Source: a virus. From it: 22,792 nucleotides of DNA. Each line of letters begins with the position of its first letter. Position 1 is the first letter of the stretch. Shown one piece after another: positions 1,640 to 17,333 of the stretch. The position numbers and the translations under genes are program-made. Under the pieces are notes generated by a model. That model did no database searches and was not told the DNA's origin. It saw only the letters and a program-made list of their open reading frames with translations. The stretch spans positions 1-22,792 of the IMG/VR virus record IMGVR_UViG_3300037193_001274; one strand, written 5' to 3'.

Positions 1640-2341
1640 ATGGGAGCCGCTGAGCGCTACAGCGACGCGCCACCGATGTACGAGTGGTTGGCTAGTCAGC
1701 ACATGAACATCGATCCGCGTCGAGCGGCTGCGGCTCGCTACCTGGCCGAGCGATTCGGGTTCTGGGAGGGCTACAGCCACGCGCGGGCGCTCCGGGTGCT
1801 CGGGCGCGAGAAATCCGAGCACCTGCTCGGGGCTCAGCTCCTGTCCGACGATTACGCCAGCCAGTTTCAGCTCGACGCCAAGGATCGGATCGTCAAGACC
1901 GGCCTGGCCGGACCGCTGGTGCCGGTCGATGTGGTCCAGTGCAACTGGGAGTACTCGTCTGCCAAGCGCTGCCAGCGGGTCGCGATCCCGGGGGCCGAGA
2001 AGTGCGGTCAGCACGGCGGCGCCTGGATCTCGGAGGAAGAGCGCGAGAACCTGGTCAGCTCGGTCATGGACCGGCTGATCCTCCTCACGGACAAGGCCGT
2101 CGGGACCCTGGAGGGGTTGCTCGATGCAGGGTCCGAGAAGGTGCGGCTGGAGGCCGCTCTCGGTATCCTCGACCGCGCCGGAGTCGGGGCCGCCAAGAAG
2201 ATCGACCTGAATATCACCAACGAGGCGGAGCTGGAGGCCGCCGAAGCCTTGAATCGACTGGAGGCCCTGGCCAAGGAGTTCCAGTCGAAGGCCGAGCTCG
2301 AAGCGATCGAAGGCGAGATCGTCGATGAGCAGCACTCTTAG
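1640..2341 (+). CDS. terS: Terminase small subunit
   Basis: 233 aa. The small subunit recognises phage DNA and hands it to the large terminase for packaging. The call rests mainly on position, since it overlaps the large subunit gene by 17 bases. Other support is a helix-rich N-terminus fitting a DNA-binding region, and a possible zinc site C101-X9-C111-X10-C122-X2-H125 ending in HGG, a motif seen in some phage small subunits. The C-terminus (residues about 190-233) is a Glu/Ala-rich helix, plausible for oligomerisation or large-subunit contact. ATG 1640 is chosen over an upstream TTG/GTG frame because the promoter-like TACACT ends 7 bases before it. There is no convincing ribosome binding site, so it may be leaderless. 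Confidence 0.75.
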   Translation: MGAAERYSDAPPMYEWLASQHMNIDPRRAAAARYLAERFGFWEGYSHARALRVLGREKSEHLLGAQLLSDDYASQFQLDAKDRIVKTGLAGPLVPVDVVQCNWEYSSAKRCQRVAIPGAEKCGQHGGAWISEEERENLVSSVMDRLILLTDKAVGTLEGLLDAGSEKVRLEAALGILDRAGVGAAKKIDLNITNEAELEAAEALNRLEALAKEFQSKAELEAIEGEIVDEQHS

Positions 2342-3758
2342 TCTGGAGCAGCGCGTCGCGCTGATGCCACCGCCCGAGCGGCAGCGCTTCCTCGACGGTC
2401 TGGACATGCGCAAGCTCCGGTGGTCCTGGAACTGGACCGCCATGCCCAACCAGCTGGCCGCCACCGAGAGCGCAGCGGCAATCGCCCTGTTCCTCGCGGG
2501 CCGAGGGGCGGGCAAGACCCGTACCGGCGCCGAGAAGATCCGCCGCCGGGTGACCAACACCAAGTATAAGCTCCGGATCCTGCTGGTGGCGCGTACCGCC
2601 GCCGACGTCCGCGATGTCATGGTGAATGGCGACTCGGGGATCATGTCGGTGTTCCCTCGGCACGAACGGCCCCGCTATATCGCCTCGCAGCGCCGGGTCG
2701 AGTTCGCCAACGGCTGCGAGGCCCTGATGTTCACGGCCGAGGAGCCCAGCCAGCTCCGAGGCCCGCAGGGACACTTGTCGTGGGCCGACGAGGTGGCCGC
2801 GTGGGACCTGCGGCCGGACGACTCGGGTCTGAACGCCTGGGACAACCTGGTCATCGCGACGCGTCTTCCGGGGCCGGACGGCACCGAGCCGCAGATCTTC
2901 GCGACCACTACGCCGAAGAAGCTTCCGCTGGTCCGTGACCTCTACTCGCAGGGTCTGGACCCCAACAACCTCCGGGTCGAGTTGTTCACCGGCAAGACGC
3001 GCGACAACGTACACCTGTCGTCGCAGTACCTGGCCAACCTGGAGGCCATCTACAAGGGCACTCGCCTGGCCGCCCAGGAGCTCGACGCCGAAGTCATGAT
3101 GGACGTTGAGGGCGCCCTCTGGATGGAGGACCTGCTCAACGAGATGCGGGTTTACGACTCGGTCGGGAAGCTCCCGTTGCGGGTGGTCGGCGTGGACCCG
3201 ACGACGGCCGATCGACCCCGCGACGAGTGCGGCATCGTGGTGGTCGGGGCGACCAGCCAATCGAACCCGGTTCACCGCACCGGGTATGTCCTCGGCGACT
3301 ACTCGATGCAGGATACCCCGTCGAAGTGGGCGGCCGAGATCGTCCGGGTGGCGAAGCTCTGGGATGCGCCCGTGGTGGCCGAGTCGAACCAGGGTGGGGC
3401 GATGGTCCGAGAGGTTATCAAGAACTCCCCCGGCGGCAAGGACGTCCAGGTCCGGCTGGTGCACGCAAAGCAGGGTAAGGCTCTCCGGGCTGAGCCGGTC
3501 TCGATGGCCTACGACCAGAAGCGGGTCATTCACAACGGCCGGTTCCCGGAGCTGGAAGACCAGATGACGACCTGGGTCCCAGGCGAGACGGCCGAGTCGC
3601 CGGACCGGGTCGACGCGCTGGTTCACGGGCTGACCGCGCTGGTGGTTCCGCAAGCGCTGAACGCCGGGGTCGGAGGGTCCCGATTGTCGGCCCCGGCACG
3701 CAAGGCGCCACCGATCGCCCGAGGAGCGTCGACCGCCATCGGCCGACGGCGCCGCTAG
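2325..3758 (+). CDS. terL: Terminase large subunit (ATPase and nuclease)
   Basis: 477 aa, normal length for the family. It is the packaging motor that translocates DNA into the prohead and cuts it. The ATPase domain has Walker A GRGAGKTR at residues 59-66, Walker B HLSWADEVA at 150-158 with Asp155-Glu156, and an ATTTPKK coupling motif at about 196-202. The RNase H-like nuclease domain has GVDPTT with Asp291, VVAESNQGG with Glu353, and VDALVHG with Asp430, a plausible acidic triad. The tail after residue 450 is basic (SAPARKAPPIARG to GRRRR). ATG 2325 lies inside the small subunit gene, as expected for translational coupling. Confidence 0.96.
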   Translation: MSSTLSLEQRVALMPPPERQRFLDGLDMRKLRWSWNWTAMPNQLAATESAAAIALFLAGRGAGKTRTGAEKIRRRVTNTKYKLRILLVARTAADVRDVMVNGDSGIMSVFPRHERPRYIASQRRVEFANGCEALMFTAEEPSQLRGPQGHLSWADEVAAWDLRPDDSGLNAWDNLVIATRLPGPDGTEPQIFATTTPKKLPLVRDLYSQGLDPNNLRVELFTGKTRDNVHLSSQYLANLEAIYKGTRLAAQELDAEVMMDVEGALWMEDLLNEMRVYDSVGKLPLRVVGVDPTTADRPRDECGIVVVGATSQSNPVHRTGYVLGDYSMQDTPSKWAAEIVRVAKLWDAPVVAESNQGGAMVREVIKNSPGGKDVQVRLVHAKQGKALRAEPVSMAYDQKRVIHNGRFPELEDQMTTWVPGETAESPDRVDALVHGLTALVVPQALNAGVGGSRLSAPARKAPPIARGASTAIGRRRR

Positions 3759-5204: not shown

Positions 5205-5522
5205 ATGGCGGAAGGCGATATTCGGGTCGAGCTGGATGTCTTCCCGGCCGACGTGCGCCTGCCGACCGGAGCCACGCTGCATGACGTCCGGGTCACCGTA
5301 ACCAACCTGGGCCTGCATATCTGGGAAGGTGTGCCGCCCATCGCCCGATACCACCGCGAACGCGTCCTCTCGCTGGAGGGCGCGTTCGCGTCTGGGTATG
5401 GTGTTCAGATCGAGGACGGTATCGTCACGGTCAAGCGAAGCCGTAGCTGTTCCTGCGCCAGCACGCTCAAATACTACGACCTGTGGCCAGGCCAGCGCCG
5501 AGTGGCGGTGCGTCGCCGATGA
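5205..5522 (+). CDS. Hypothetical protein (105 aa), probably leaderless
   Basis: Not recognised. It is beta-rich, with alternating hydrophobic residues (IRVELDVFPADVRL, DVRVTVTNLGLHIW), and ends in a basic segment with CSC at about residues 83-85 and WPGQRRVAVRRR. ATG 5205 directly follows a full promoter-like element by 7 bases, and no ribosome binding site is visible. Its stop overlaps the MuF-like gene start (ATGA at 5519-5522), so it leads the transcription unit that includes the MuF-like gene. Confidence 0.7.
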   Translation: MAEGDIRVELDVFPADVRLPTGATLHDVRVTVTNLGLHIWEGVPPIARYHRERVLSLEGAFASGYGVQIEDGIVTVKRSRSCSCASTLKYYDLWPGQRRVAVRRR

Positions 5523-6163
5523 CCCAGCAGGACGATCAGGCGACCGAGGAGCAGATTGCTGCCGCGCTGGCGCCGATCCTCGCCGAGCTCGCCGCTCAGG
5601 GCGCCCCGGTGGCGCCGTCCGCGATCGAGACTCCGATCGACGAAGCGGTCGGCGCGATGCTCCTGGCATACCTGCTGCGGGTCGGATTCGAGATGATCCG
5701 GTCCTTCCGCCAGCCTGAGCCGCCGTGGGCCGAGCGCATCGACGAGCTGGCCTACCGGTACTCGAATCAGGGTGTGCGGCGGGCGGCCGAGTGGACTCGC
5801 GAGGCCGTGCACCACTGGCCGGACCTGGCGCCAGGTACCGAGATGGCCGATCGAGTCGACCGAGCCGCCAACAGTGTTGACCCGATCGCGGTCGGCGTGA
5901 CCACGGCCAGCCGCGAGATGGTTCGCCGTGATCTGGCCGTCGATCTCGGGTCGACTCGAAAGACCTGGCGCACCAAGAAGGACACCCGCGTCCGGCCGAG
6001 CCACTTCGCGATGGAAGGCCAGTCGGTTCCGCTGGACCGGCCGTTCATCTCGGGGGCCGGGGTCCGGATCTGGCACCCAGGCGATCCGATGGCGCCGCTA
6101 TCGGAGACCATCATGTGCCGGTGCCGACTCTCCTATCGACTCCGACGGCTGGAGGCCGCATGA
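5519..6163 (+). CDS. MuF-like minor head protein
   Basis: 214 aa. The C-terminal part matches the Phage Mu F head morphogenesis domain: KTWRTKKDTRVRPSH at residues 148-162 (D155, R157, R159, H162), GQSVPLDRPF shortly after, and a terminal CRC at 200-202. MuF-type proteins associate with the portal and enter the prohead. The N-terminal half is helical, with an apolar helix near residues 45-60 (AVGAMLLAYLLRVGFEMI). It is shorter than many MuF proteins. Unusually, it is encoded before the portal gene rather than after it, separated only by a small membrane protein gene. Confidence 0.82.
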   Translation: MTQQDDQATEEQIAAALAPILAELAAQGAPVAPSAIETPIDEAVGAMLLAYLLRVGFEMIRSFRQPEPPWAERIDELAYRYSNQGVRRAAEWTREAVHHWPDLAPGTEMADRVDRAANSVDPIAVGVTTASREMVRRDLAVDLGSTRKTWRTKKDTRVRPSHFAMEGQSVPLDRPFISGAGVRIWHPGDPMAPLSETIMCRCRLSYRLRRLEAA

Positions 6164-6444
6164 AGCTCACTGAGATTCTGATCGGACTGGCCGCGACCAA
6201 GCGTTTCGTGAATCTCGTCACCGAAGATGAAATCACGCGCCCCGTCCGCGAAAAGGTCGCCCGGCGGTTCCCGGACAGCAAGGTCAACTATCTGCTCAAC
6301 TGTCCCTACTGTGTAGGCGTCTGGGGTGGGTTCCTGATCATGTCGCCGTACACCCCGCCCTATGTGCGCAATGCGCTGGCTATGGCGGGGCTCTCGGACC
6401 TGGTACTCTGGGCGCGAGGTGTCGTCGAATCTAAGGTGAAGTGA
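6160..6444 (+). CDS. DUF1360-like small membrane protein
   Basis: 94 aa. The signature NCPYCVGVWGGFL at about residues 47-59 (two Cys then Trp) resembles the DUF1360 family of small membrane proteins found in phages and Bacillus. Apolar stretches lie near residues 5-20 and 50-62. Its ATG overlaps the stop of the MuF-like gene, and its TGA overlaps the portal ATG (TGATG at 6442-6446), so it is translated in the same unit. The function is unknown. A promoter-like TGGTACTCT lies near its 3' end. Confidence 0.7.
   Translation: MKLTEILIGLAATKRFVNLVTEDEITRPVREKVARRFPDSKVNYLLNCPYCVGVWGGFLIMSPYTPPYVRNALAMAGLSDLVLWARGVVESKVK
6393..6409 (+). promoter_or_regulatory. Promoter-like core before portal gene
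   Basis: CTGGTACTCT (6400-6409), an extended -10-like TG-G-TACTCT, lies inside the 3' end of the DUF1360-like gene, 34 bases before the portal ATG. The upstream GTCA half of the long consensus is not conserved here (TCGGACC instead). It is listed because the core recurs at similar places before other genes. Taken alone it could be chance coding sequence. Confidence 0.35.
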
Positions 6445-8033
6445 TGGCCGTACTCCCGCTCCGGCGCCGGTCGGCCGAGCCCGCGCCCTACGTGGCCCGA
6501 CAGACCATCACTGCGTCTGCCGCCCGGCTGAACCTGCGCAAGAAGCAGGAGACCGACGAGATCCGGCAACGGACCACGGCGACTGTCTGGCAGGAGGAAG
6601 CCTGGCAGTACTACGACGCTATCGGCGAGATCAAGTTCGCATTCGGCCTAGAGGCCAACGTCCTGAGCCGACTGCGCCTCTACGCCGCCGTCGTCACGGA
6701 CCCCGAGGCCCCGCCCTCCCGGCTCACCGATGCGGTCTCGGTAGAGAAGCCGGACGGCGAGAACCCGCATCCGCACGGCATCGACCCCAAGCTCGCCCTG
6801 CTCGCTCGCGACACGCTCAACAAGACCCTGTCGAAGACCAGCCTCGGCACGTTCATGCGGGCCTTCACGTTGAACATGGCAGTGCCGGGCGAGGGCTACT
6901 GCGTCATGATCAAGGACCGGTGGCACTTCAAGTCGACGGCGGAAGTCACCGTCGACGGCACGGGTCAAGCATACCTGCAGGAGAGCAAGAGCCAGGGACA
7001 GAACCGGGTCAAGCTCCCGGCCAACACGCCGATCGGCCGCGTCTGGCGCAATCACCCCCGCAACTCCAAGGACCCCGACTCCAGCATGCTGGGCGTCCTC
7101 GGGGACTGCGAAGAGCTGCTGCTGTACAGCCGGATGATTCGAAAGTCCATCCGGGCCCGGATGAACGCGGGTATCCTGTACGTCCCCGACGGAATCTCCG
7201 TCGCCGCCCGAACCCCCGAGGACCAGGAGACCGAGGAGGAGGCGGAGGCCGACGAGAACTCGCTCGAACAGGAGCTGACCTACGCGCTGACCGAGCCGGT
7301 CGAGGACGAGAGCTCGTCGGCTTCGATCATCCCGCTACTGTTGCGCGGCCCGGCGGACATGGCCGACCAGATCAAGTACATCGAGCTTCACTCGAAGTCG
7401 GACGAAGCTCTGGTCGCCAAGTCCGAGCGCGCACTGGAGCGGATCCTCCAGGGTCTGGACGTGCCCAAGGACCTGGTGACAGGCCTGGCCAACGTCAAGT
7501 ACTCGAACGCCATCCAGATCGATGAGAACCTGTACAAGGCGCACATCGAGCCTCTGGCCGTGATCCTGTGCGAGGCGGTCACCGAGATCATCCTGCGGCC
7601 CCAGCTTGCGGCGGCGGCGAAGGCTAGCGGCGAGGAGTTCACGGAAGAGGACCTGGCCAAGATCGTCGTCTGGTACGACCCGTCGGAGATCACGGTCAAG
7701 CCCAACCGGTCGGAGGACGCCGACACCGGGTACAGCCACTATCTGCTGTCCGGTGACGCCTGGCGCCGCGAGCACGGCTTCTCGGACCAGGACGCCCCGG
7801 ACGAGAACGAGATCGCTCGACGCATGGCGCTGGAGAAGGCCGAGCTGCCGCCGGAGATGGCCGCCGCCCTGTTCAATCTGCTGCTGCCGAACATCCTCAA
7901 GGCGGCCCAGGCGCAGAACGCGGCCAACGACCCGAACGGCGGCCTGCCCGCCGACCTGCAGGAGATGCTCGGACAGACCGAGACCCCGATGAGCATGGGC
8001 CAGGTGGCCGAACCCGTGGGAGCCCAGCAATGA
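6444..8033 (+). CDS. Portal protein
   Basis: 529 aa, typical length. The portal is the dodecameric channel at one capsid vertex and the docking point for the terminase. Family features include an N-terminal region with NVLSRLRLYAAVV, the stretch PIGRVWRNHPRNSKDPDSSMLG-type (residues about 195-215) seen in actinophage portals, RMIRKSIRARMNAGILYVPDG, and a central helix-rich region before the acidic C-terminal part. ATG 6444 (TGATG overlap with the previous stop) is preferred over GTG 6441. AAGGTGA at 6433-6439 is a usable ribosome binding site. A Glu/Asp-rich insertion lies near residues 255-275. Confidence 0.9.
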   Translation: MAVLPLRRRSAEPAPYVARQTITASAARLNLRKKQETDEIRQRTTATVWQEEAWQYYDAIGEIKFAFGLEANVLSRLRLYAAVVTDPEAPPSRLTDAVSVEKPDGENPHPHGIDPKLALLARDTLNKTLSKTSLGTFMRAFTLNMAVPGEGYCVMIKDRWHFKSTAEVTVDGTGQAYLQESKSQGQNRVKLPANTPIGRVWRNHPRNSKDPDSSMLGVLGDCEELLLYSRMIRKSIRARMNAGILYVPDGISVAARTPEDQETEEEAEADENSLEQELTYALTEPVEDESSSASIIPLLLRGPADMADQIKYIELHSKSDEALVAKSERALERILQGLDVPKDLVTGLANVKYSNAIQIDENLYKAHIEPLAVILCEAVTEIILRPQLAAAAKASGEEFTEEDLAKIVVWYDPSEITVKPNRSEDADTGYSHYLLSGDAWRREHGFSDQDAPDENEIARRMALEKAELPPEMAAALFNLLLPNILKAAQAQNAANDPNGGLPADLQEMLGQTETPMSMGQVAEPVGAQQ

Positions 8034-8416
8034 CCGTCTGGAGTGTGCAAGCTCGCGTCGAGGCCGCTGCTCAGGGTCGGGCCATGCCCGACGGGTCGTT
8101 CCCGGTGGACGACGTCGACTCGCTGGTGGCGGCGGTCCGCTCGGTCCCCCGAGTCGACTCGCACCGTCAACTCGACGCCGCGTCGCACCTGCTGCGGCGA
8201 GCCAACGAGCTCGGGGTCTCGGAACGGCTGCTGGTGGCTGCGGGGCTCGACCCGGGCCTGGTCATCCGGGCCCGCAACCGCACCGCTGTCGGCACGCTGA
8301 TCGAGGTCGGCGACCACCACGTCCGGGTGTCCGGGCTGACCGCGTCTGGGGTCCGAGTTCACCTGCCGGACGGTATGCTGGAGATCACGGAGTCCGATAT
8401 CGTCGAGGCGGTGTGA
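8030..8416 (+). CDS. DGSFP-domain protein (128 aa)
   Basis: Residues about 12-72 match, by eye, residues 60-121 of the 9168 protein. Both have a basic/Ala lead, then A(M/L)PDGSFP (here 18-25), then a Leu/Ala helix and an RRA-type helix. This helical domain recurs in actinophage head-region proteins and I cannot give it a function. Residues about 80-128 form a small beta-rich domain (GTLIEVGDHHVRVSGL, GVRVHLPDGMLEI). Its ATG overlaps the portal stop (ATGA at 8030-8033), and its stop overlaps the next gene, placing it in the portal unit. Confidence 0.75.
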   Translation: MTVWSVQARVEAAAQGRAMPDGSFPVDDVDSLVAAVRSVPRVDSHRQLDAASHLLRRANELGVSERLLVAAGLDPGLVIRARNRTAVGTLIEVGDHHVRVSGLTASGVRVHLPDGMLEITESDIVEAV

Positions 8417-9153
8417 TGCAGGAGCTGGTGGGGCTGCTCTCGCGGCGGACGGGTGATGACCGTGAGGATCCGTTGTGGGACTTCTTCGGGGTCACCTGGG
8501 GGACCGTAGAGGGTGAAGGTATAGACGTCGCAGTCTACCGGGGTCACCACGATGTGTTCCGGGCGACCCTGGAAGCTCGGGCGCAGCTCGACCGCGACTA
8601 CGGTCACCCGTCGGAGTTTGCCGTCCCGGTGCCCGACCACAACGATCTGCGGATGGTCAAGCCGCTACAGCCCGGCGAGGCGCCGCGCGAGGTCGTGCTC
8701 GGCGACGGCGGGGTCGACGTCCGGATCATCCAGCTCAAGCTCGGACCGGTCCAGGTCGGGAAGGTCGACGGTTGGTACGGGCCGTTCACCGAGGCCGCCG
8801 TCCGGCGGTACCAGGAACGCCACGGGCTGAACGTCACCGGCAAGGTCGGGCGCCGGACCCGAGACCGGCTGCAGGGCATCACTCGGGGGCCGCGCGGGGC
8901 TAACCGGGCGCCTGCGTTCGGTCATCCGGACGAAGCCTGGACGCGGCAGACCTTGCGGATGGCCGGGTACGGACCGATCGACGACTCGAAACCCGAAGAG
9001 GGTTACGCGACCTGGGTGCCGCCGATCTGGCTGGATCAGTACAATCGGCTTACTGTCGCCGGAGCTAAGCAGGCGCACGCCCAGGCGATCGCGCGGGGAG
9101 CCTATCCGTCCCCGTTCGAACCTGGTACACTTCGATCCGTCGACCCGGAGTGA
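8416..9153 (+). CDS. Peptidoglycan-binding domain protein (245 aa)
   Basis: Residues about 97-155 form a PG_binding_1-type three-helix domain: VRIIQLKLG, then GKVDGWYGPFTEAAVRRYQ, then LNVTGKVGRRTRDRL. The VDGxYGPxTExAVRxYQ core is characteristic. Such domains bind cell-wall peptidoglycan, usually attached to an amidase or lysozyme. No catalytic domain is evident here: residues 1-95 are unrecognised, and the C-terminal 90 residues (AFGHPDEAWTRQTLRMAGY; WVPPIWLDQYN) match nothing I know. The gene lies in the head module. ATG 8416 (TGATG) is preferred to GTG 8413. Confidence 0.78.
   Translation: MQELVGLLSRRTGDDREDPLWDFFGVTWGTVEGEGIDVAVYRGHHDVFRATLEARAQLDRDYGHPSEFAVPVPDHNDLRMVKPLQPGEAPREVVLGDGGVDVRIIQLKLGPVQVGKVDGWYGPFTEAAVRRYQERHGLNVTGKVGRRTRDRLQGITRGPRGANRAPAFGHPDEAWTRQTLRMAGYGPIDDSKPEEGYATWVPPIWLDQYNRLTVAGAKQAHAQAIARGAYPSPFEPGTLRSVDPE
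9114..9131 (+). promoter_or_regulatory. Promoter-like core with GTTCGAAC palindrome
   Basis: CTGGTACACT (9122-9131) lies in the last codons of the previous gene, 36 bases before ATG 9168. Directly upstream is the 8-bp palindrome GTTCGAAC (9114-9121). The core matches the copies at 1615 and 15500 exactly in TGGTACACT. The position just before a large gene with its own strong ribosome binding site (AGGGGAG at 9153-9159) fits a promoter for the acidic repeat protein gene. Confidence 0.45.
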
Positions 9154-9167
9154 GGGGAGCTCACCGT

Positions 9168-11411
9168 ATGGCCACGATCCCCGTCATCGCTTCGGCAGAT
9201 GACATCGATGCGGCAATCGTCTACGCGCACCGCCGTCCCGAGGCCCGCTGGTACGTGGCCCGGCGCGCGGAAGCGCTGGGCGTCAGCAACAAGATCCCTC
9301 AGAAGTGGGGGATCACGGCGGCCGGTCCGCCGCAGGCAGTCCGCGAGAAGGCCGCTGACAAGGGCCAGGCACTCCCTGACGGGTCGTTTCCGATCCGCAA
9401 CAAGGAGGACCTGGCCAAGGCTGTGAAGGCGTTCGGTCGCGCCAAGGACAAGGCGAAGGCTAAGCGACACATCATCAAGCGTGCCCGTGCTCTCAAGGCC
9501 GTCGACACGTTGCCGGAGAGCTGGGGAGTCACCGCTACCGGCGCTCTGGTCGCTGCGTCCATCCGAGGCATGGCCCGAAAGATCAAGTGGGATCCCGCCC
9601 TGCATCCACGCGGCCGAGACGGCCGGTTCATCGAGAAGGGCGGCTCGGTCGACATCTTCGAGGGCGCCGGGTTCCGGACGCCCGAGGCCCGGGGGCGCGC
9701 GGTCGGCGTGCGCCGCGAGGGCGACAACGAGCTGGTCCAGGTCGAGATCACCACAGCCCCGACCGGCGGTGAGTACAAGATCGGCGACACGGTCGAGGTC
9801 GATACCGAGAACCTGGAAGCTGGGCCCGAGCAGAAGGCCCGACTGGACGAGGCTCCCGAGGGCGAGCCGGAGCCCGATATCATCTCGGACGACACGGCCG
9901 ACGCAGACCTGGATCGGAAGGTCGACGCGGTCTACGAGGCCTTGGACGAGATGGAGGCCGAGTACAACCCGGACACCATCGACGACACGGTCTACGCCGT
10001 GATCGACGAGAACCCGGACATGGAGCCGGGCGAAGTGGCGATGGAGGTCTCGTCTCGGCTCGACCTGGATGCTCCCGACCTGGAGGAGGAGGAGGACTCA
10101 GCGCCTTCCTCCGAGTTCGCCTCTGAGGAAGAGTGGCGCGGCGCCCTGTACGACGAGCTGACCGAGCGTGGGGTCAACGAGTACAGCATCGACGACGTCA
10201 TGTCGCGGGTCGATTCGACGCCGTATGAGAGCGGTCAGACTCCGGCTGAGTGGGCCGATGAGAACCTGGCCAACCTCGATGTGGACGAGATCGAGTACGA
10301 AGGCGAGGAAGACGACTTCGTCGAAGATGTTCGGGCCACGCTCGACGCGCGTGGCGTCGAGGGCATCGAGGACGGCGACATCGTCGAGCTCTACCGATCG
10401 AATCCCGACCTGTCGCGCGAGGATGCAGCGGACGCGCTCGCTTCGCGCAATGCCGAAACTCCGCCGCCGGACGCGCCGGAGACAGAAGAGATCGTCGAGG
10501 AGAGCTCCTACTCCGCCTACCTGAACGAGGACGGCACGGCCGACCCGCAGACCTCCTACGACTACTTCAAGGAGCGGCTGACCGAGGGCTATGGTCCGTT
10601 CGACACCCCGGACGGCCAGCCGACCGACGAACAGGTCAAGGACTACATCAGCCAGCTCTACGACACTCTTGACTCCGGCAACGAGGTCGAGGACGCCGAT
10701 CTGACGAAGATGCTCGACGCGGCCAGCGGTCATACGCCGGAAGGCGTCGAAGAGGAGGTTATCGAGCCAGGCCCCGCCCCCGCTCCGGAGCCGATCGAAG
10801 GTCCCGGCTTCACGCTGCCCTCGGACGCCCGAGCAGGCGACACCGATCCCCGAGCGTGGACCGGGCGCAAGGTCGACGTCCAGACTCGGGACGGACAGGT
10901 GTTCACGGGCGGGCGTGCGATCGTCCGCCGGGAGCGCGATGGGTCCTTCACGATGACGGTGGACGACCAGCCGGTCGACATGGACAACATCGCCACGATC
11001 GAAGAGTGGACGCCGAATCCCGACGACCCGGAGGCGTTCATCCGCCCCGAGCTTCCAGGTGAGAACGAGATCGTCCTGGTCGAGGGGTTCCCAGCCGCAC
11101 CCATCGGGGACCGCGAAGAGCTGATATTCCAGCGGACGGTCGAAGAGATCCAGGCGGCAGCGGGCAACCGGGCCCGGCTGCGCAAGATGCTCAACGACTG
11201 GCGCAAGACCAAGCGAGCGAGCCAGGCTCGTGCCGTGTCGCGCGGGTCTGGTCCTAGCCCGGAAGATGACCGGGTCGAACGCCAGATTGACTGGCGGATC
11301 GCTCTGCTGGAGAAGATGATCGCGGACATCCCGTCCGGTCGCCGCAGCACCACCGCGTCCGGAGCAGAGGATCCGCGCGAGACGCTGCGGCGACGAGTCT
11401 ACGGGGACTGA
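9168..11411 (+). CDS. Large acidic repeat protein, head-associated (747 aa)
   Basis: A mosaic protein of unknown function. Residues 11-49 and 80-121 are two related helical units, each ending P-x-x-WG(I/V); the second is preceded by LPDGSFPI (69-76), shared with the 8030 protein. Residues 138-228 contain HPRGRDGRFIEKGG and a beta domain closely similar to residues 10-100 of the ART-like protein encoded next. Residues 245-515 are extremely rich in Asp/Glu and contain about four degenerate helical repeats. Residues about 530-610 form a small beta domain (GRKVDVQTRDGQVFTGG), and the C-terminus is a basic helical tail. ATG 9168 is chosen over GTG 9150 because AGGGGAG lies 8 bases upstream of it. 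Candidate roles are scaffold-like, packaged or DNA-mimic protein. Confidence 0.8.
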   Translation: MATIPVIASADDIDAAIVYAHRRPEARWYVARRAEALGVSNKIPQKWGITAAGPPQAVREKAADKGQALPDGSFPIRNKEDLAKAVKAFGRAKDKAKAKRHIIKRARALKAVDTLPESWGVTATGALVAASIRGMARKIKWDPALHPRGRDGRFIEKGGSVDIFEGAGFRTPEARGRAVGVRREGDNELVQVEITTAPTGGEYKIGDTVEVDTENLEAGPEQKARLDEAPEGEPEPDIISDDTADADLDRKVDAVYEALDEMEAEYNPDTIDDTVYAVIDENPDMEPGEVAMEVSSRLDLDAPDLEEEEDSAPSSEFASEEEWRGALYDELTERGVNEYSIDDVMSRVDSTPYESGQTPAEWADENLANLDVDEIEYEGEEDDFVEDVRATLDARGVEGIEDGDIVELYRSNPDLSREDAADALASRNAETPPPDAPETEEIVEESSYSAYLNEDGTADPQTSYDYFKERLTEGYGPFDTPDGQPTDEQVKDYISQLYDTLDSGNEVEDADLTKMLDAASGHTPEGVEEEVIEPGPAPAPEPIEGPGFTLPSDARAGDTDPRAWTGRKVDVQTRDGQVFTGGRAIVRRERDGSFTMTVDDQPVDMDNIATIEEWTPNPDDPEAFIRPELPGENEIVLVEGFPAAPIGDREELIFQRTVEEIQAAAGNRARLRKMLNDWRKTKRASQARAVSRGSGPSPEDDRVERQIDWRIALLEKMIADIPSGRRSTTASGAEDPRETLRRRVYGD

Positions 11412-11417
11412 ATCGCC

Positions 11418-12449
11418 GTGGCTAGTATCCGGGGCACCGTTCAACGGGCCCGGTGGAATCCGGCGCTGCACCCTCGGGGCCGCGACGGGCGATTCATCGA
11501 GAGCGGTGGGCTGGTCAATCTCTTTGACGGGGCCGGGTTCGCCAAGCCTAGCGGCCGAGGGCGAGCGGTTGGGGTCCGGCAGGACGAGAGCGGCGAGGAG
11601 CTGATCCAGGTCCAGCTCCTCGACCCGCCGCCCGGAGACTATACTCGGGGCGACATCGTAGAGATCGACCCCGAGAATGCCGAAGCAGCGCCCGAGGCCA
11701 AGGCCCGAATCAGCGATGAGGACCTGGGCACGGGCATTCGCTGGCTGCCCATCCACCAGAGTACCTTGGACATGCTGGACGAGTCGATGGACAACGTCGA
11801 GACTCGGCGCCGCATCCAGCAGTTGCACCGCGAAAACGGCAACCTGCGGTCTCGACAAGTGGCCGACATCATCGCGGAGGAGCAGACCGAGGAGATCGCC
11901 GAGACGGTACCTGAGGAGGAAGTGACCGAACCGTCGGTCACTCCTCGGCAGGTCTATCACGTGACTTCGCCGGAGGGCCGTGCCGGGATCGAGAAGACCG
12001 GGTTTCGTTCGACCGGCGAGAACGGTGCCTTCTTCGGTCAAGGTATCTACTTCCACACCGACAAATCGCACTCGGATCAGTACCTGGAGAACTGGCAGGA
12101 CGAGGTCGACCCGCGCGCCGAGCAGATGAAGGCAGTAGCGGAGGTGCGCAACCCGTTCATCGTGCACACGGAGTTTCAAGAGGAAGACTTCGACCGCGAC
12201 GAGCTGGCGGAGACGCCGCGCCCGCTGGAGAAGATGTGGGAGACGATGCGCGACGCCGGGCTGATCGACAACGGGGCTCGTCCGACGCCATCGGAGATTA
12301 CTCGGATCCTGCAGGACGCTGGGTACGACGCGGTCGAGGTCATCCATCACGGCGAGTACGATAATGACTCGACCGGCAGTCAACTGGTACTCTTCGACCC
12401 GGAGCGCGCGAAGGCCGTCTTGCGCGACCGGGTACACGGAGGAGGCTAG
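11418..12449 (+). CDS. ADP-ribosyltransferase-like head-region protein (343 aa)
   Basis: Residues 10-100 repeat the HPRGRDGRF domain of the 9168 protein. A helical acidic linker (100-175) follows. Residues about 178-340 look like the ADP-ribosyltransferase fold of phage polyvalent proteins, which transfer ADP-ribose from NAD+. Readable motifs are VYHVTS with His181, GQGIYFHTD with Tyr211, and a final GYDAVEVI (302-309) then GSQLVLFDP (320-328). In relatives the last motif usually carries Glu where Gln322 stands, so activity may be altered. GTG 11418 follows the previous stop by 6 bases. The target, if any, is unknown. The fold assignment is by motif reading only. Confidence 0.78.
   Translation: MASIRGTVQRARWNPALHPRGRDGRFIESGGLVNLFDGAGFAKPSGRGRAVGVRQDESGEELIQVQLLDPPPGDYTRGDIVEIDPENAEAAPEAKARISDEDLGTGIRWLPIHQSTLDMLDESMDNVETRRRIQQLHRENGNLRSRQVADIIAEEQTEEIAETVPEEEVTEPSVTPRQVYHVTSPEGRAGIEKTGFRSTGENGAFFGQGIYFHTDKSHSDQYLENWQDEVDPRAEQMKAVAEVRNPFIVHTEFQEEDFDRDELAETPRPLEKMWETMRDAGLIDNGARPTPSEITRILQDAGYDAVEVIHHGEYDNDSTGSQLVLFDPERAKAVLRDRVHGGG
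12376..12393 (+). promoter_or_regulatory. Promoter-like element inside ART-like gene
   Basis: GCAGTCAACTGGTACTCT (12376-12393) closely matches the capsid-gene copy in AGTCAA and TGGTAC-CT, with one base less between the halves. It lies 59 bases before ATG 12453 and therefore could drive the 2H phosphoesterase gene. It coincides with codons for SQLVL of the ART-like protein's last motif, so the DNA serves two roles if the promoter is real. Confidence 0.45.
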
Positions 12450-12452
12450 CCC

Positions 12453-14669
12453 ATGGCGGAACGGACCTACCCGGTACCGAAGTCGTTGGTCGCGACCGGG
12501 GCGTTCGGTGGACGCGAGCACGCCACAGCCGCGCAGCTTCGGCAGGCGGTGACCGAGGACGAGCGGGCGTGGGCCAACCGAGTCCTGTCGCACCTGGACG
12601 GCCGGAAGGCTCAGGCTTTGTCGGCGGCGGCAGTCGGCGAGATGTCCGGGGCGTCCTACTACGGACTGCTCCACCCAGATATGCCCGACCACGAGGTCGT
12701 CTTCGCGGTGACCCGGGTCGACCCGAGCTGCTCGGTGAATCGGCCGATGGATCGATGGAACGGCCGCGAGTGGGAGCCGGTCACGGCAGCCTACGACCCG
12801 GTCGGATTCGACGTGGTCGAACTCGATACTGGGCTGCTGCCGGAGGTCCTGGAGGCGCTGTCCGCCGGGGCGGCCGGGGTCGTGTTCAGCCCACTCCGGC
12901 CGAAGGCGTGGACGCGGCCGAATACCACGCTGGCCTCGGGGTCGTCGCTGGTCGCAGCGGCCGAGGTGCATGACGATGGCATCATGGTGGCGTTCTATCC
13001 GCCGCCGGAGTGGGTCAACAAGCTGATGGTCGAAGGCGGCCAGCCGCCCGAGGATCTGCACATGACGCTGGCCTACCTCGGCAGCATGGCCGACAACATC
13101 GCCCTGCCTGACGCGGTCTCGGTCGGCGAGCTGGTGGCCGTGGTGGTGGACTGGGCGATGGATCAGGCCGAAACGATGACCGGATCGATCGCGGGCCCCG
13201 CCCTGTTCACCGAGGGCGAGCAGCCGGTCTCGGTTGCTCTGGTCGACGTCCCGGCCCTGCCGGAAGCCCGTCAGCAACTGGTCGAGTTTATCGAATCAGC
13301 CGGGTTCGCGGTGCGTAAGGACCATGGCTACACGCCGCATATCACCCTGGCCTACGATGGCGAGATCCGCGACGTGCCCACCGGCCCGATCTCGTTCGAC
13401 CGGGTCTGCGTGGTCTGGGGGACGGCGAAGTACGAGGTCCAGCTCGGCGACCCGATGCGCGAGTTGCGCGGATACGGCCTGGTCAACGAGGCGGGCGAGG
13501 CGTACAGCGAATCGGTCGTGGCAGCGTACGGCGGTACAGCCATCGCGACGGGCGAGGACGCGCTGGCCGAAGCGCCTCCTGGGTCGATGGTTGTGGCCGT
13601 GGTCGACGACATGGACACAAGCGCCGTCCTCGACGTCATCCGGGTGGAGCCCGGGCCCCGAGTCATGCGGCGGCACAACGGCGCCTGGGAGCCGGACAAC
13701 GAGTACCTGGCGAAGCTGATCGGGGTCGATCCGCCGACCGTGATGGAGCTGGAGGCCGAGCAGCTCACGGCGGTGCTGGAGCAGGTCGACCAGTACGACC
13801 AAGAGAATCCCGACCCCGAGCCGGAGGAGACGACCGAGCCGGTCACCGCCGCGTACGTGTTCACCGAGTCCAAGCACGAACGCGACGCGTCCGGGAAGTT
13901 CGAGTCCAAGGGCGGCGGGGGTGGTGGGGGAGCCCAGGCAGGGCGCCGTCGAATCCGCTTGAAGGCAACCTCGAAGCCGGGTCCCCGCCCAATCCCCGAG
14001 TCCAACCAGATCCGCCCCACGGACCGCGAGACCAAGCCGCTGCGCCGACCGGCTCCGCCGCGCGAGATCTCGGGTGGTCCGGCGAGGCCGAATCGCCCCG
14101 TCGACGACTTGCGCCCCCGTCCGATCAGCACGCAGCCCGGCCTGCGCCCCGGGCCGTTCGGGTCGACCGTGGACCAGCAGTACTGGCGCCGGACGGCGTT
14201 CGAGATCGCCGACGCCGAGCAGGCGCTGATCCGCCAGCGCGAGCGCGACGCGTTTGACCGCGAGATCAAGGACGAGTTCCAGCAGCGCATCGCCGCTGGC
14301 GAGGAAGACATCGAGGAGATCGAGGAGGATGTCCGCCAGCGCATCGCGGCCGAGATCCGGCGCCGAGAGGCCGAGGACCGGGAAGCCGAATACCGGCTGA
14401 GCGAGGAGGAGATCCAGCGCATGCGCGAGGACTCCGCCCTGAGCGCTGCCGCTGACAAGCCTGCCAGCACGAGGATGCCGGGCGACCTGATGTCGTATTG
14501 GTCGACCGGCAAGGGCGCGTTCAAGATCCGCTGGGGGACGTCGGGCGACTTCAACCGGTGCCGTCGTCAACTGGCCAAGTACCTGCGAACCGACCAGGTG
14601 TCGGGCGCCTGCGCCAACCTTCACCGTATCGCGACCGGGAGATGGCCTGGTCGGAACCGGGGTCATTGA
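12453..14669 (+). CDS. 2H phosphoesterase-containing head-region protein (738 aa)
   Basis: Residues about 165-340 form a 2H phosphoesterase (LigT / 2'-5' RNA ligase-like) domain, with both HxT motifs intact: HMTLAYLG at 203-210 and HITLAYDG at 296-303. Relatives cleave 2',3'-cyclic or 2'-5' linked nucleotides. The domain is flanked by two related segments, around NGREWEP (103-109) and NGAWEP (409-414). KHERDASGKFESKGG (474-488) and a Gly run lead into a long charged coiled region (585-670). Residues 675-738 are a compact C-terminal domain (YWSTGKGAFKIRWG, RCRRQL, GACANLH, TGRWPG) that I recall from several actinophage head proteins. ATG 12453 has GGAGGAGG at 12438-12445. The likely role is packaged enzyme or counter-defence, by inference. 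Confidence 0.85.
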   Translation: MAERTYPVPKSLVATGAFGGREHATAAQLRQAVTEDERAWANRVLSHLDGRKAQALSAAAVGEMSGASYYGLLHPDMPDHEVVFAVTRVDPSCSVNRPMDRWNGREWEPVTAAYDPVGFDVVELDTGLLPEVLEALSAGAAGVVFSPLRPKAWTRPNTTLASGSSLVAAAEVHDDGIMVAFYPPPEWVNKLMVEGGQPPEDLHMTLAYLGSMADNIALPDAVSVGELVAVVVDWAMDQAETMTGSIAGPALFTEGEQPVSVALVDVPALPEARQQLVEFIESAGFAVRKDHGYTPHITLAYDGEIRDVPTGPISFDRVCVVWGTAKYEVQLGDPMRELRGYGLVNEAGEAYSESVVAAYGGTAIATGEDALAEAPPGSMVVAVVDDMDTSAVLDVIRVEPGPRVMRRHNGAWEPDNEYLAKLIGVDPPTVMELEAEQLTAVLEQVDQYDQENPDPEPEETTEPVTAAYVFTESKHERDASGKFESKGGGGGGGAQAGRRRIRLKATSKPGPRPIPESNQIRPTDRETKPLRRPAPPREISGGPARPNRPVDDLRPRPISTQPGLRPGPFGSTVDQQYWRRTAFEIADAEQALIRQRERDAFDREIKDEFQQRIAAGEEDIEEIEEDVRQRIAAEIRRREAEDREAEYRLSEEEIQRMREDSALSAAADKPASTRMPGDLMSYWSTGKGAFKIRWGTSGDFNRCRRQLAKYLRTDQVSGACANLHRIATGRWPGRNRGH

Positions 14670-14714: not shown

Positions 14715-15488
14715 ATGACGACGAAGGCGAAGATCTACGTGGAGCGTGACCCGCTGAACCTGGGCACGCTGCGCGCACTAACGGCGGCCAGTATCCCGGT
14801 CAATCCCCCGGCGGCCTGGTTCCAGGACCCGGGGCTGACGGCGGCCACGCCGCTCACGATCGAGGACGACGGCCGGGTCTACGGGCACATCGCGGCCTGG
14901 CGGACCAACCACATCGGGCGTCACGACAACACCAAGCCTCCGATGTCGGCCAGCGGCTACTCCTACTTCAAGACCGGGGTGATCCGGACCGCCGAGGGGA
15001 CCGACGTCCCGATCGGGCAGCTCACGCTCGCCGGGGGTCACGCGCCCTTGTCGGCCGGGGCGGCAGACGCGGTCAAGCACTACGACGACACCGCGTCGGC
15101 CATCGCCGACATCAACGTCGGCGAGGACAAGCACGGCATCTGGGCGGCCGGTTCGCTCCGGCCCACCGCCACCCCCGAGCAGATCCGCGCGCTGCGCGCG
15201 TCGGCCCCGTCCGGCGACTGGCGCCCGATCAATGGCAACCTGGAGCTGGTGGCCTGCTGCCAGGTGAACGTCCCCGGGTTCCCGATCGCCCGCGCCCGGG
15301 TCGCGTCGGGCATGGTCACCGGCCTGGTGGCGGCAGGCGCGCAGGAGCTCTACTCGGCCCGCGTCTCCAGCGCGCTCGGGTACGACGCGCGTATCGCGGA
15401 GCTGGAGGCTCAGGTTCAGGCGCTCACCGCGTCGGCGGCCGAGCAGCGCAAGGCCGAGCTTCGCGCTCGGGTTCGCCAGGCGGGGTAG
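14715..15488 (+). CDS. Capsid maturation (prohead) protease
   Basis: 257 aa. It is expected to cut the scaffold region of the capsid protein during head maturation. The pattern matches the actinophage prohead protease family: VYGHIAAW (56-63), GGHAPL with His109, KHYDDT with His122, HGIWAAG, SGDWRPINGNLELVA with Ser166, and VNVPGFPIARA. His109 or His122 and Ser166 are the best candidates for the catalytic pair. A C-terminal helix (AELEAQVQALTASAAEQRKAELRARVRQ) may contact the scaffold. It directly precedes the capsid gene, the standard order. Family assignment is by motif recall; the exact catalytic residues are uncertain. Confidence 0.78.
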   Translation: MTTKAKIYVERDPLNLGTLRALTAASIPVNPPAAWFQDPGLTAATPLTIEDDGRVYGHIAAWRTNHIGRHDNTKPPMSASGYSYFKTGVIRTAEGTDVPIGQLTLAGGHAPLSAGAADAVKHYDDTASAIADINVGEDKHGIWAAGSLRPTATPEQIRALRASAPSGDWRPINGNLELVACCQVNVPGFPIARARVASGMVTGLVAAGAQELYSARVSSALGYDARIAELEAQVQALTASAAEQRKAELRARVRQAG

Positions 15489-15534: not shown

Positions 15535-15597
15535 GCGACCCCCATCGGTACCGTCCACGGTGAATCAGACCACACCGGTCTATGGAGGAGGGGTCGC
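15535..15597 (+). promoter_or_regulatory. Structured capsid leader with possible SD-sequestering stem
   Basis: In the 85-base leader, GCGACCCC (15535-15542) is perfectly complementary to GGGGTCGC (15590-15597), which includes the 3' end of the ribosome binding site GGAGGAGGGG (15584-15593). Between them lie competing small hairpins: GGACG/CGTCC (15531-15535 with 15552-15556), ACCG/CGGT (15550-15561) and AGACC/GGTCT (15567-15581). This could be a translational control element. High GC makes short complementarities common, so confidence is moderate. Confidence 0.35.
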
Positions 15598-15602
15598 CTT
15601 AC

Positions 15603-17333
15603 ATGGCTACCTACGAAGACAAGATGGTCGACATCGACCAGCTGTCGGACGAGGACCTGGAGTCGCTCGAAGGTGAAGTCACGGAGGCGTTCGACGCCGC
15701 CGACGACGCCAACGATCTCGAAGCCATGGCGGCTGCTGCCGATGCCCTGGACCAGGTCAAGTCTGTTCGGCACTCGCGGAAGGGCGAGGAGGACGAGGAC
15801 ATGGACGACGAGAAGAAGGACAAGCCGGAAGCCGTCGCCGCATCGGCGGAGGGCACCCCGGCGCCGTCGGACCCCGGTCCCGACCCGGCTCCCGCGCCCG
15901 ACCCGGCTCCCGCGCCGACGTCGCAGCCCGACGACGCTCCCGAGGTGACCGACCCGGCCGATCCGGCCGAGCCGGAGCCCACTCCGGACGAGCCCGTCAC
16001 CGAACCGACCGAAGGGGACCCGGCGGCCCAGCCGCCCACCACCGAGGTCACCACCGACGACAACAAGGAGGACACCCCGGTGGACATCCCCGAAGACCGC
16101 GCTCCGGTCCCGACCGAGACCAAGCCGTCCAACGTCATCACGGCAGCGGCCGACAACGTCAACTACTCGCAGGGTCACCAGTTCCGTGACTCCGAGGAGC
16201 TGGCGTCGGCCTTCTGCGACCGCATCGACAGCATCCGGGGCGTGACCTCGGGGTCCGGCGAGAAGCTCAAGGTCGCCACGATCCTCGCGTCGGCCGTCGA
16301 CGAGTCGCGCATCCTCGACGAGCGCGACCCCAAGGGCAACGCGAAGAAGATCCGCGAGGCCACCAGCATGGAGGCGATCCTCGCGGCCGGTGGCTACTGC
16401 GCCCCGCTGGAGTCGCGTTACTCCATCTTCGGTCTCGGCACCGCCGCCCGTCCCGTCCGGGACGGTCTCGCGGGCTTCCAGGCCGGTCGCGGTGGCATCC
16501 GCTACACCGCCGGTCCGAAGCTGGGCGACCTCGAAGAGGCCGTCGGCATCTGGACGGCGGCCACGGACGCCGCCCCGGGCGCCAACGTCAAGGCGAAGTT
16601 CGTCGTCGAGTGCCAGCCCGAGCTGACGGCGACCGTCGACGCGGTCACCCTCCAGCTCCAGTTCGGCAACCTGATGAGCCGGGCGTACCCCGAGCTCGTC
16701 GCGGCCAACAACGAGATGGCGCTCATCGAGCACGCCCGTCTCGCCGAGATGACGCTGCTGTCCAAGATCGAGGCCGGTTCGCTCGACCTGACCGGCTCGG
16801 CCCTGCTGGGCGTCGCCCGCGACTTCCTCCGGCAGGTCTCGGTCGCCGGGGCCCGCTACCGCGCCCGTCACCGCATGAACCGGACCGACATGCTCCGGCT
16901 GTTCGCTCCGGCGTGGATGCTCGACGCCATCCGGGACGACCTGTCGATGCAGGCCCCCGGCGACGACGCCATCTCGAAGGCGGACGCGGAGATCGCGGGC
17001 TACCTGCGCGACCGCAACGTCAACGTCACGTGGTACCTGGACGACGCCGACATGGTCACGGCCGAGGTCGACGGATCCACGGTCGACGCCTACCCGGCGG
17101 CGGCCGACTGGTACCTGTTCGCCGAGGGCACGTGGCTCTTCCTCGACGGCGGTTCCCTCGACCTCGGTGTCGTCCGCGACGCGGACCTGGTCAGCACCAA
17201 CGACTACATCGAGTTCTCGGAGACCTTCGAGACCGTCGCCAAGGTCGGCCACGAGTCCATCCACGTCACCACGGCGGTCGCGCTCGCCGGTTCCTACGGC
17301 GGCCCGACGGACACCACGCTCGTCGGTTCCTGA
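15603..17333 (+). CDS. Major capsid protein with N-terminal scaffold domain
   Basis: 576 aa. Residues 1-75 are acidic and helical (YEDKMVDIDQLSDEDLESLE), residues 75-175 are a Pro/Asp/Glu-rich linker, and from about 176 onward is an HK97-fold-type capsid protein (EAILAAGGYCAPLESRYSIFG, GLAGFQAGRGGIRY, an E-loop-like Gly-rich stretch). HK97-type capsids of this size carry their scaffold as a cleavable N-terminal domain, and no separate scaffold gene is present. ATG 15603 has GGAGGAGGGG at 15584-15593, about 9 bases upstream. An in-frame ATG at 15582 has no ribosome binding site and overlaps that one. The upstream protease probably removes the N-terminal part near residue 175. Confidence 0.88.
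   Translation: MATYEDKMVDIDQLSDEDLESLEGEVTEAFDAADDANDLEAMAAAADALDQVKSVRHSRKGEEDEDMDDEKKDKPEAVAASAEGTPAPSDPGPDPAPAPDPAPAPTSQPDDAPEVTDPADPAEPEPTPDEPVTEPTEGDPAAQPPTTEVTTDDNKEDTPVDIPEDRAPVPTETKPSNVITAAADNVNYSQGHQFRDSEELASAFCDRIDSIRGVTSGSGEKLKVATILASAVDESRILDERDPKGNAKKIREATSMEAILAAGGYCAPLESRYSIFGLGTAARPVRDGLAGFQAGRGGIRYTAGPKLGDLEEAVGIWTAATDAAPGANVKAKFVVECQPELTATVDAVTLQLQFGNLMSRAYPELVAANNEMALIEHARLAEMTLLSKIEAGSLDLTGSALLGVARDFLRQVSVAGARYRARHRMNRTDMLRLFAPAWMLDAIRDDLSMQAPGDDAISKADAEIAGYLRDRNVNVTWYLDDADMVTAEVDGSTVDAYPAAADWYLFAEGTWLFLDGGSLDLGVVRDADLVSTNDYIEFSETFETVAKVGHESIHVTTAVALAGSYGGPTDTTLVGS
15881..15916 (+). repeat. 18-bp perfect tandem repeat, two copies
   Basis: CGACCCGGCTCCCGCGCC occurs at 15881-15898 and again at 15899-15916 without change. 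It encodes DPAPAP twice in the Pro/Asp linker of the capsid protein. It is a likely site of length change by slippage; a variable linker length should be tolerated. Confidence 0.9.

Follow-up and report, generated by a model that had tools for sequence, protein, structure and literature searches.

A short peptide element shared by three head-module proteins of a virus and by candidate head-carried effectors elsewhere

Results

Gene Content of the Head Module

The window analyzed here is a virus record of 22.8 kb (22,792 nucleotides) with a head module inside it. TerL is encoded at 2325-3758, a MuF-like head morphogenesis protein of 226 aa at 5483..6163 (+ strand) as a separate gene, and the portal protein at 6441..8033 (+; phrog_776). 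Next come a small protein with a helical "..SFPV..." module (8030..8416, +) and a peptidoglycan-binding-domain protein (8413-9153; PF01471), which lies in an odd spot for an endolysin-type domain and is possibly a virion-associated cell-wall binder. The three proteins of main interest here have 753 aa (9150..11411, +; start GTG 9150 or ATG 9168), 343 aa (11418..12449, +) and 738 aa (12453..14669, +), and are called the 9150, 11418 and 12453 proteins below. They are succeeded by the head maturation protease (14715..15488, +; phrog_859/18402/21406) and the major head protein (15582..17333, +; phrog_777). All three are thus encoded between portal and protease, among the virion genes of a portal-terminase phage, and the gene map agrees with the first-pass annotation on this placement. 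Early in the window, the stretch at 174-1220 encodes an N-terminal part that resembles nucleoside deoxyribosyltransferases and, either fused to it or next to it, a C-terminal sequence of dUTPase type (AGFDLYVSEEK...GRSS...GIIDAGYRGP).

Three Copies of a Shared Element

A six-frame search of the whole window with the regular expression [RK]D.{0,2}G[RK]F returned exactly three matches, all in frame and one in each of these proteins. Copy 1 lies at 9588..9644 (+; WDPALHPRGRDGRFIEKGG), where the stretch around the match, 9603-9644, reads HPRGRDGRFIEKGG. Copy 2 (11454..11510, +; WNPALHPRGRDGRFIESGG; stretch 11469-11510, HPRGRDGRFIESGG) is found 12 residues from the N terminus, and the divergent copy 3 lies at 13857..13925 (+; SKHERDASGKFESKGG; stretch 13872-13916, KHERDASGKFESKGG). 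Only in 11418 is the element N-terminal; it is located at residue ~145 in 9150 and ~474 in 12453. A hidden Markov model of the element built without the window copies found all three among 11,675 ORFs, with E-values of 5e-11, 4e-11 and 1.5e-4. Five column-permuted control models found nothing below 1e-3, and across 84 loci the reversed expression gave 0 matches vs. 20 for the forward one. The element was not found in the window's major head protein, portal or MuF protein.

The shared element claimed for these three proteins by the first-pass annotation was therefore confirmed, and for the first two proteins the likeness exceeds that claim. Rather than the element alone, 9150 (residues 136-232; 9555..9845, +) and 11418 (residues 2-98; 11421..11711, +) have a whole domain of ~97 residues in common, with 60% identity (E 1e-32). 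The resemblance of copy 3, in the 2H protein, is weak by eye. AlphaFold2 predicts the 11418 domain as a small five-stranded barrel (pLDDT 82-96 over residues 11-90), in which the element forms an ordered arm at the N terminus. Foldseek matches were to SH3-like folds (KOW, BAH, tudor), generic and all with E > 1e-3, and the viral matches included GodonK gp67. Neither the element domain nor the 12453 protein had a relative among solved structures.

Domains of the Three Proteins

In the N-terminal part of the 9150 protein, a helical "..SFPI...LP.WG" module occurs twice (about aa 10-55 and 79-125); the element and SH3-like domain come next, and then an acidic region. The protein has no Pfam, NCBIfam or enzyme match; through the helical-module part it matches phrog_80 (head maturation protease). 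The module (..[SR]FPI...D/E-L-A...RRA..L...LP..WG) is without a family name. It occurs once in the 8030 protein (E 2e-8 to the 9150 module), twice in 9150 (9177-9524), in Forza gp80 and GMA2 Orf10 (L119, L004) and, by eye, in L129 and L130.

After its N-terminal element domain, the 11418 protein has a C-terminal ADP-ribosyltransferase (ART)-like catalytic domain (11943..12422, +). The matches to PF18760 (ART-PolyVal; 21 of 31.2 bits) and PF00644 (PARP; 21.7 of 26.7 bits) are significant, yet both are under the curated cut-off, and on this sequence similarity the part is probably an ADP-ribosyltransferase. No relatives of the domain were found among viral contigs, and for this reason AlphaFold2 modeled the ART half poorly.

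The 2H phosphoesterase domain predicted in 12453 (12954..13451, +) is supported by PF02834 (26.9 bits; cut-off 23.3) and phrog_2659 (1e-25), and both HxT motifs (HMT and HIT) are readable. It is followed by a domain in common with GMA2 Orf11, Forza gp82 and GodonK gp71 (13563..13826, +; 43-50% identity), by the divergent element, and by a conserved C-terminal domain (14259..14663, +; phrog_6439, WGTxGDFxRC...GxCAxxHR...WPG) that is elsewhere fused to head maturation proteases. Judged by these similarities, 12453 is not free cargo: it is a conserved head-module protein of the GMA2 Orf11/Forza gp82/GodonK gp71 family, to which a 2H domain has been added. The earlier domain labels hold for 2H, which scores above its Pfam cut-off, and only as probable for ART; the idea of the 2H protein as simple cargo had to be given up. 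One enzyme is recognizable in 11418, one in 12453, and none in 9150.

In GMA2, a 2H domain of the 12453 type is also fused to the end of the neighboring ART-like protein, and in Lilbeanie and Abt2graduatex2 such a domain is joined to protease-containing proteins. Some such proteins are annotated as "RNA ligase" or "head maturation protease," namely GMA2 Orf10 (L004), Lilbeanie gp16 (L120) and Abt2graduatex2 gp11 (L118). The protease name of GMA2 Orf10 is suspect because Orf12 is the protease homolog, and may stem from families of 2H-protease fusions (phrog_18402).

Occurrence and Conservation of the Element

The rough consensus of the element is W/F-D-E/P-x-x-H-P-R-D/G-x-x-G-R-F-x-x-x-G-G, and nonredundant copies align as [WF][DN][EP]xx-HPR[DG]xxG[RK]Fxxx-GG. 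We searched a viral collection and 257 Gb of cellular genomes with a DNA-level pattern for HPRD..GRF...GG. The viral collection gave 111 matching stretches, of which 80 were returned as loci, vs. 45 in the cellular genomes, with a chance expectation of ~15 by our rough estimate assuming uniform base composition. About 10 of the 45 look like chance, being short frames or without the aromatic residue five positions upstream, and 20 of the remaining 35 are giant proteins of Streptomyces type. The element is almost confined to viruses and prophages. It heads unrelated proteins on viral contigs and in prophages that span several bacterial phyla, as well as in one archaeal virus, mostly with no barrel behind it.

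Across 76 nonredundant copies, the invariant residues are fixed, a conservation partly built in by the search pattern, and third codon positions are at near-maximal entropy. The combination indicates that selection acts on the peptide. A DNA-level signal such as a recombination site is ruled out by the saturated third codon positions.

Copies fall into two classes. Class 1 copies (RRPWNPALHPRDSKGRFIETGG), at residue ~35 (30-38), head Streptomyces phage and prophage proteins of thousands of residues. Many of these are on contigs of 110-137 kb, SNF2/helicase domains were present in two of the four scanned, and isolate phage Gilgamesh has one class 1 copy near its portal-MuF gene. Among class 2 copies, 21 of 45 are more than 200 residues into the protein. 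Many standalone proteins have the element ~10-40 residues from the N terminus, and several at only 7-8. Most class 2 copies have a Gly/Ser linker in place of the barrel, so that what the copies have in common is the element and not the barrel. A tblastn search of isolate phages with the class 2 consensus gave almost nothing (one match), perhaps due to filtering of the Gly run. We found no description of this shared tag in the literature, nor any mention of an HPRD motif with portal proteins.

Attached Enzymes and Neighboring Genes

Class 2 proteins match PHROG families for portal, head maturation protease, minor head and head morphogenesis proteins, and their Pfam matches include ADPrib_exo_Tox, ART-PolyVal, KptA, NUDIX, RelA_SpoT, SAM lyase, PI3/4-kinase, CdiA_C, GNAT, DUF3293 and ParB. 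Further tails resemble, by eye, PBECR RNases, PD-(D/E)XK nucleases and DpdA/TGT; lysozyme-like tails were also first seen by eye, and lysozyme alone was put to a domain test. When tested, otherwise unrelated cargo proteins had the element in common. The first-pass annotation had suggested searching relatives for the element beside other enzyme domains, and the outcome is strongly positive (ART, KptA, GNAT, NUDIX and others).

Among the genes next to class 2 copies, those for portal, protease, MuF, major head protein and terminase predominate. In protease-anchored loci sampled regardless of the element, 12 of 78 have it; some of these elements precede zeta-toxin kinase and PI3/4-kinase domains, and others GNAT- or ART-like regions (by eye). 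The proteases found with the element belong to different families.

The Element at Domain Junctions

The element is repeatedly found where a head protein ends and an enzyme begins. One protein (L034) has a MuF domain at 197-286, the element at 477 and a SAM lyase at 502-614; in two others the portal part extends to 502 with the element at 522 (L039), and to 454 with the element at 470 (L011). The element can also lie between several enzyme domains of one protein, often with a Gly/Ser-rich linker after it. L012 has the element at 1372, GNAT at 1400, ParB at 1539 and KptA at 1722. Exceptions are L018 and L055, multi-enzyme proteins with an enzyme ahead of the element.

Two homology-based tests were independent of prior detection of the element. 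In the first, homologous portals 60-64% identical to L248 were found to end where the element and GNAT-like tail of L248 begin, so tag and GNAT-like cargo are gained and lost together. In the second, 59 genomes were searched with a Methylobacterium protein consisting of portal, element and PBECR (genus search). About 25 portals without a tail were recovered, none with the element, as well as four proteins (75, ~53, 27 and 26% identical) in which an element and PBECR-like unit follows a MuF-type CRC motif. In one prophage the unit comes after a plain portal, in others after a portal-MuF fusion, and similarity between units begins at the element itself. In the homology-based sample as a whole, the element is at the junction in 5/5 portals with a C-terminal enzyme vs. 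0/~25 bare portals. These portal tests show that the tag moves with the cargo and is retained even in fusions, and the sequence comparisons indicate that the element and enzyme unit moves between different head carriers. A search for relatives of portal L221 in viral contigs returned only L221 itself. Two of the four proteins with the PBECR-like unit have a diverged element between portal and MuF as well; such a copy (FDEAQPRDASGRWTDG) is present in the portal-MuF fusions L290 and L291, besides one before the PBECR-like tail.

Element Genes Away From Head Genes

The first-pass annotation had held that broad occurrence in proteins not linked to the head would refute it. Linkage to portal, MuF or protease is overwhelming, but one bacterial lineage departs from it. 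In gut genomes G064, G067 and G070 (one locus is named as Gastranaerophilales), element proteins are encoded at scattered chromosomal sites, one of them inside a ribosomal protein operon. The scattered loci are L214, L224, L233, L249, L306, L307 and L308. The proteins have similar N termini and different C termini, some lysozyme-like, some M23-like and some of other kinds. Behind three of the copies in G070 lie genes for small membrane proteins that are related to one another (L306 and L249 are among such loci); by their arrangement these genes look like putative immunity genes of toxin-immunity pairs. The gut genes are possibly toxins delivered by phage-derived particles. These loci weaken the rule that the element is always beside head genes, yet they fit a tag on delivered effectors.

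Discussion

The association of the element with enzymes and its linkage to head genes make it well supported, at the level of sequence, that the element marks cargo. That it also targets cargo into the prohead, as first proposed for this window, is plausible. The reading that we favor, with some caution, is that a portable tag docks effectors in the prohead, so that the enzyme is carried in the head and delivered with the DNA. The element would mark where head-carried effector modules start on their N-terminal side; in this phage, it would head the 11418 ART-like protein, lie inside 9150, and have diverged in the 2H-bearing head protein. By docking to some part of the inside of the prohead (portal, MuF, scaffold or shell), the tag would trap the attached enzyme in the head, and the enzyme would then enter the host with the DNA. 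Once delivered, the ART and 2H enzymes might modify host proteins or destroy nucleotide defense signals. What the sequences show is the element with its domain, the conservation of the peptide, the association with many enzymes, the linkage to head genes, and gain, loss and transfer along with the enzyme. Docking, packaging, delivery and host targets are all steps that we infer, and our literature search found virion proteomics for no element protein. Counted against a docking tag are the internal position of the element in 9150 and 12453, the Forza ART protein and 12453-family homologs without 2H, none of which has it, and four gut loci that are not head-linked. An import signal would also be redundant in portal and MuF fusions, because the enzyme is already attached to a head protein; the element is kept both between portal and MuF and between either of these and attached enzymes.

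This last arrangement is what would be expected if the element were a module boundary or linker with no role in trafficking, a stable hinge kept because recombination swaps cargo there. Gly/Ser-rich linkers often come after it, it lies between enzyme domains as well as between portal and MuF, and it is the exact boundary of the swapped unit. We nevertheless consider a pure linker unlikely, since the residue-specific conservation (HPR, G[RK]F and the preceding W/F) goes beyond the needs of a hinge, many standalone proteins have the element so near the N terminus that there is nothing to join, and the domain predicted in the window includes it as an ordered segment.

Somewhat less likely again is a processing site, at which the prohead protease or another protease would free enzymes from portal or MuF proteins or trim a leader, as in T4. 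The junction position and the presence of several elements per polyprotein would suit such a site, and processed internal proteins are on record for T4 and P1 (PMC9024508). The prohead-protease version was downgraded because the window's major head protein, the usual protease substrate, is without the element, as are its portal and MuF proteins. The variety of protease families that accompany the element also argues against cleavage there, as do copies only 7-8 residues from the N terminus. Local duplication of the 9150/11418 domain in this lineage, with a chance third match and a shared domain that is just an SH3-like nucleic-acid or protein binder, would explain two adjacent domains at 60% identity, a weak third copy and a generic barrel, but was already disfavored and is very improbable, given that the element heads unrelated, mostly barrel-free proteins across bacterial phyla and in an archaeal virus and that the third copy is significant with the leave-out model.

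If the docking tag is real, its reach could be wide: a near-universal address tag for effectors of bacterial and archaeal viruses, reused by chromosomal toxin genes of the gut lineage, with putative membrane immunity genes and delivery by particles, is a speculative extension that we hold only tentatively. The way in which tailed viruses choose enzymes to carry in the head has been worked out in just a few model phages (T4, P1). With a tag that can be read from sequence, virion-carried effectors, many of them without recognized domains, could be predicted in thousands of phages, and a short and testable head-loading signal would become available in hosts such as Streptomyces, Gordonia or haloarchaea. 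Such a tag would also account for the exchange of widely differing enzymes among portal, MuF, protease and standalone carriers.

Comparison With Known Systems

The head module of Forza runs from MuF (gp75) through portal (gp77), element protein (gp78), ART (gp80), gp82 and protease (gp84) to major head protein (gp87). This matches the order in the window, gp82 being of the 12453 family, and the modules of GodonK and GMA2 resemble it. The element proteins of Gilgamesh (gp48), GodonK (gp67) and Forza (gp78) directly follow the portal or come one small gene later. The element proteins of Forza and GodonK have, by eye, a kinase-like region, unlike that of the window. Also unlike the window, the ART and 12453-family proteins of the Gordonia phages are without the element, which was not found in the Forza ART protein or in 12453-family homologs without 2H. 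The ART-like and 2H parts that GMA2 has in one protein are in separate proteins in the window. In the archaeal virus HHTV-1, the element is in gp13, in the head module, two genes upstream of the MuF gene.

Virion-carried effectors as such are already known. Packaging and injection have been predicted for ART and 2H domains that lie within portal, MuF or protease genes or are joined to them (PMC5512222, PMC9503650). As defined there, the class of polyvalent proteins is set by enzyme domains and gene context, and the accessible parts of both papers make no mention of the HPR[DG]xxG[RK]F element. The window matches this class in its ART-PolyVal/2H repertoire and in its location among virion genes, and differs in having mostly one enzyme per protein. 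MuF polymorphic toxins combine a head protein with a variable C-terminal toxin, linked to portal and terminase (PMC5576092). Such a fusion is absent from the window, where MuF is a separate gene without a toxin, and unlike in that class the element is used on MuF, portal and protease carriers as well as on standalone ones.

The signals of T4 internal proteins and P1 DarB resemble the element in being short sequences on head-carried proteins. DarB is the closest tested precedent: its first 30 residues are enough to bring a reporter into the capsid, and no consensus targeting sequence was found among the Dar proteins (PMC9024508). The T4 and P1 signals are N-terminal and experimentally proven, whereas the element is conserved across phyla, often internal and known from sequence alone, and does not share the extreme N-terminal location typical of those capsid targeting sequences. 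DarB itself is a large antirestriction protein, comparable in this respect to the element-headed Streptomyces giants.
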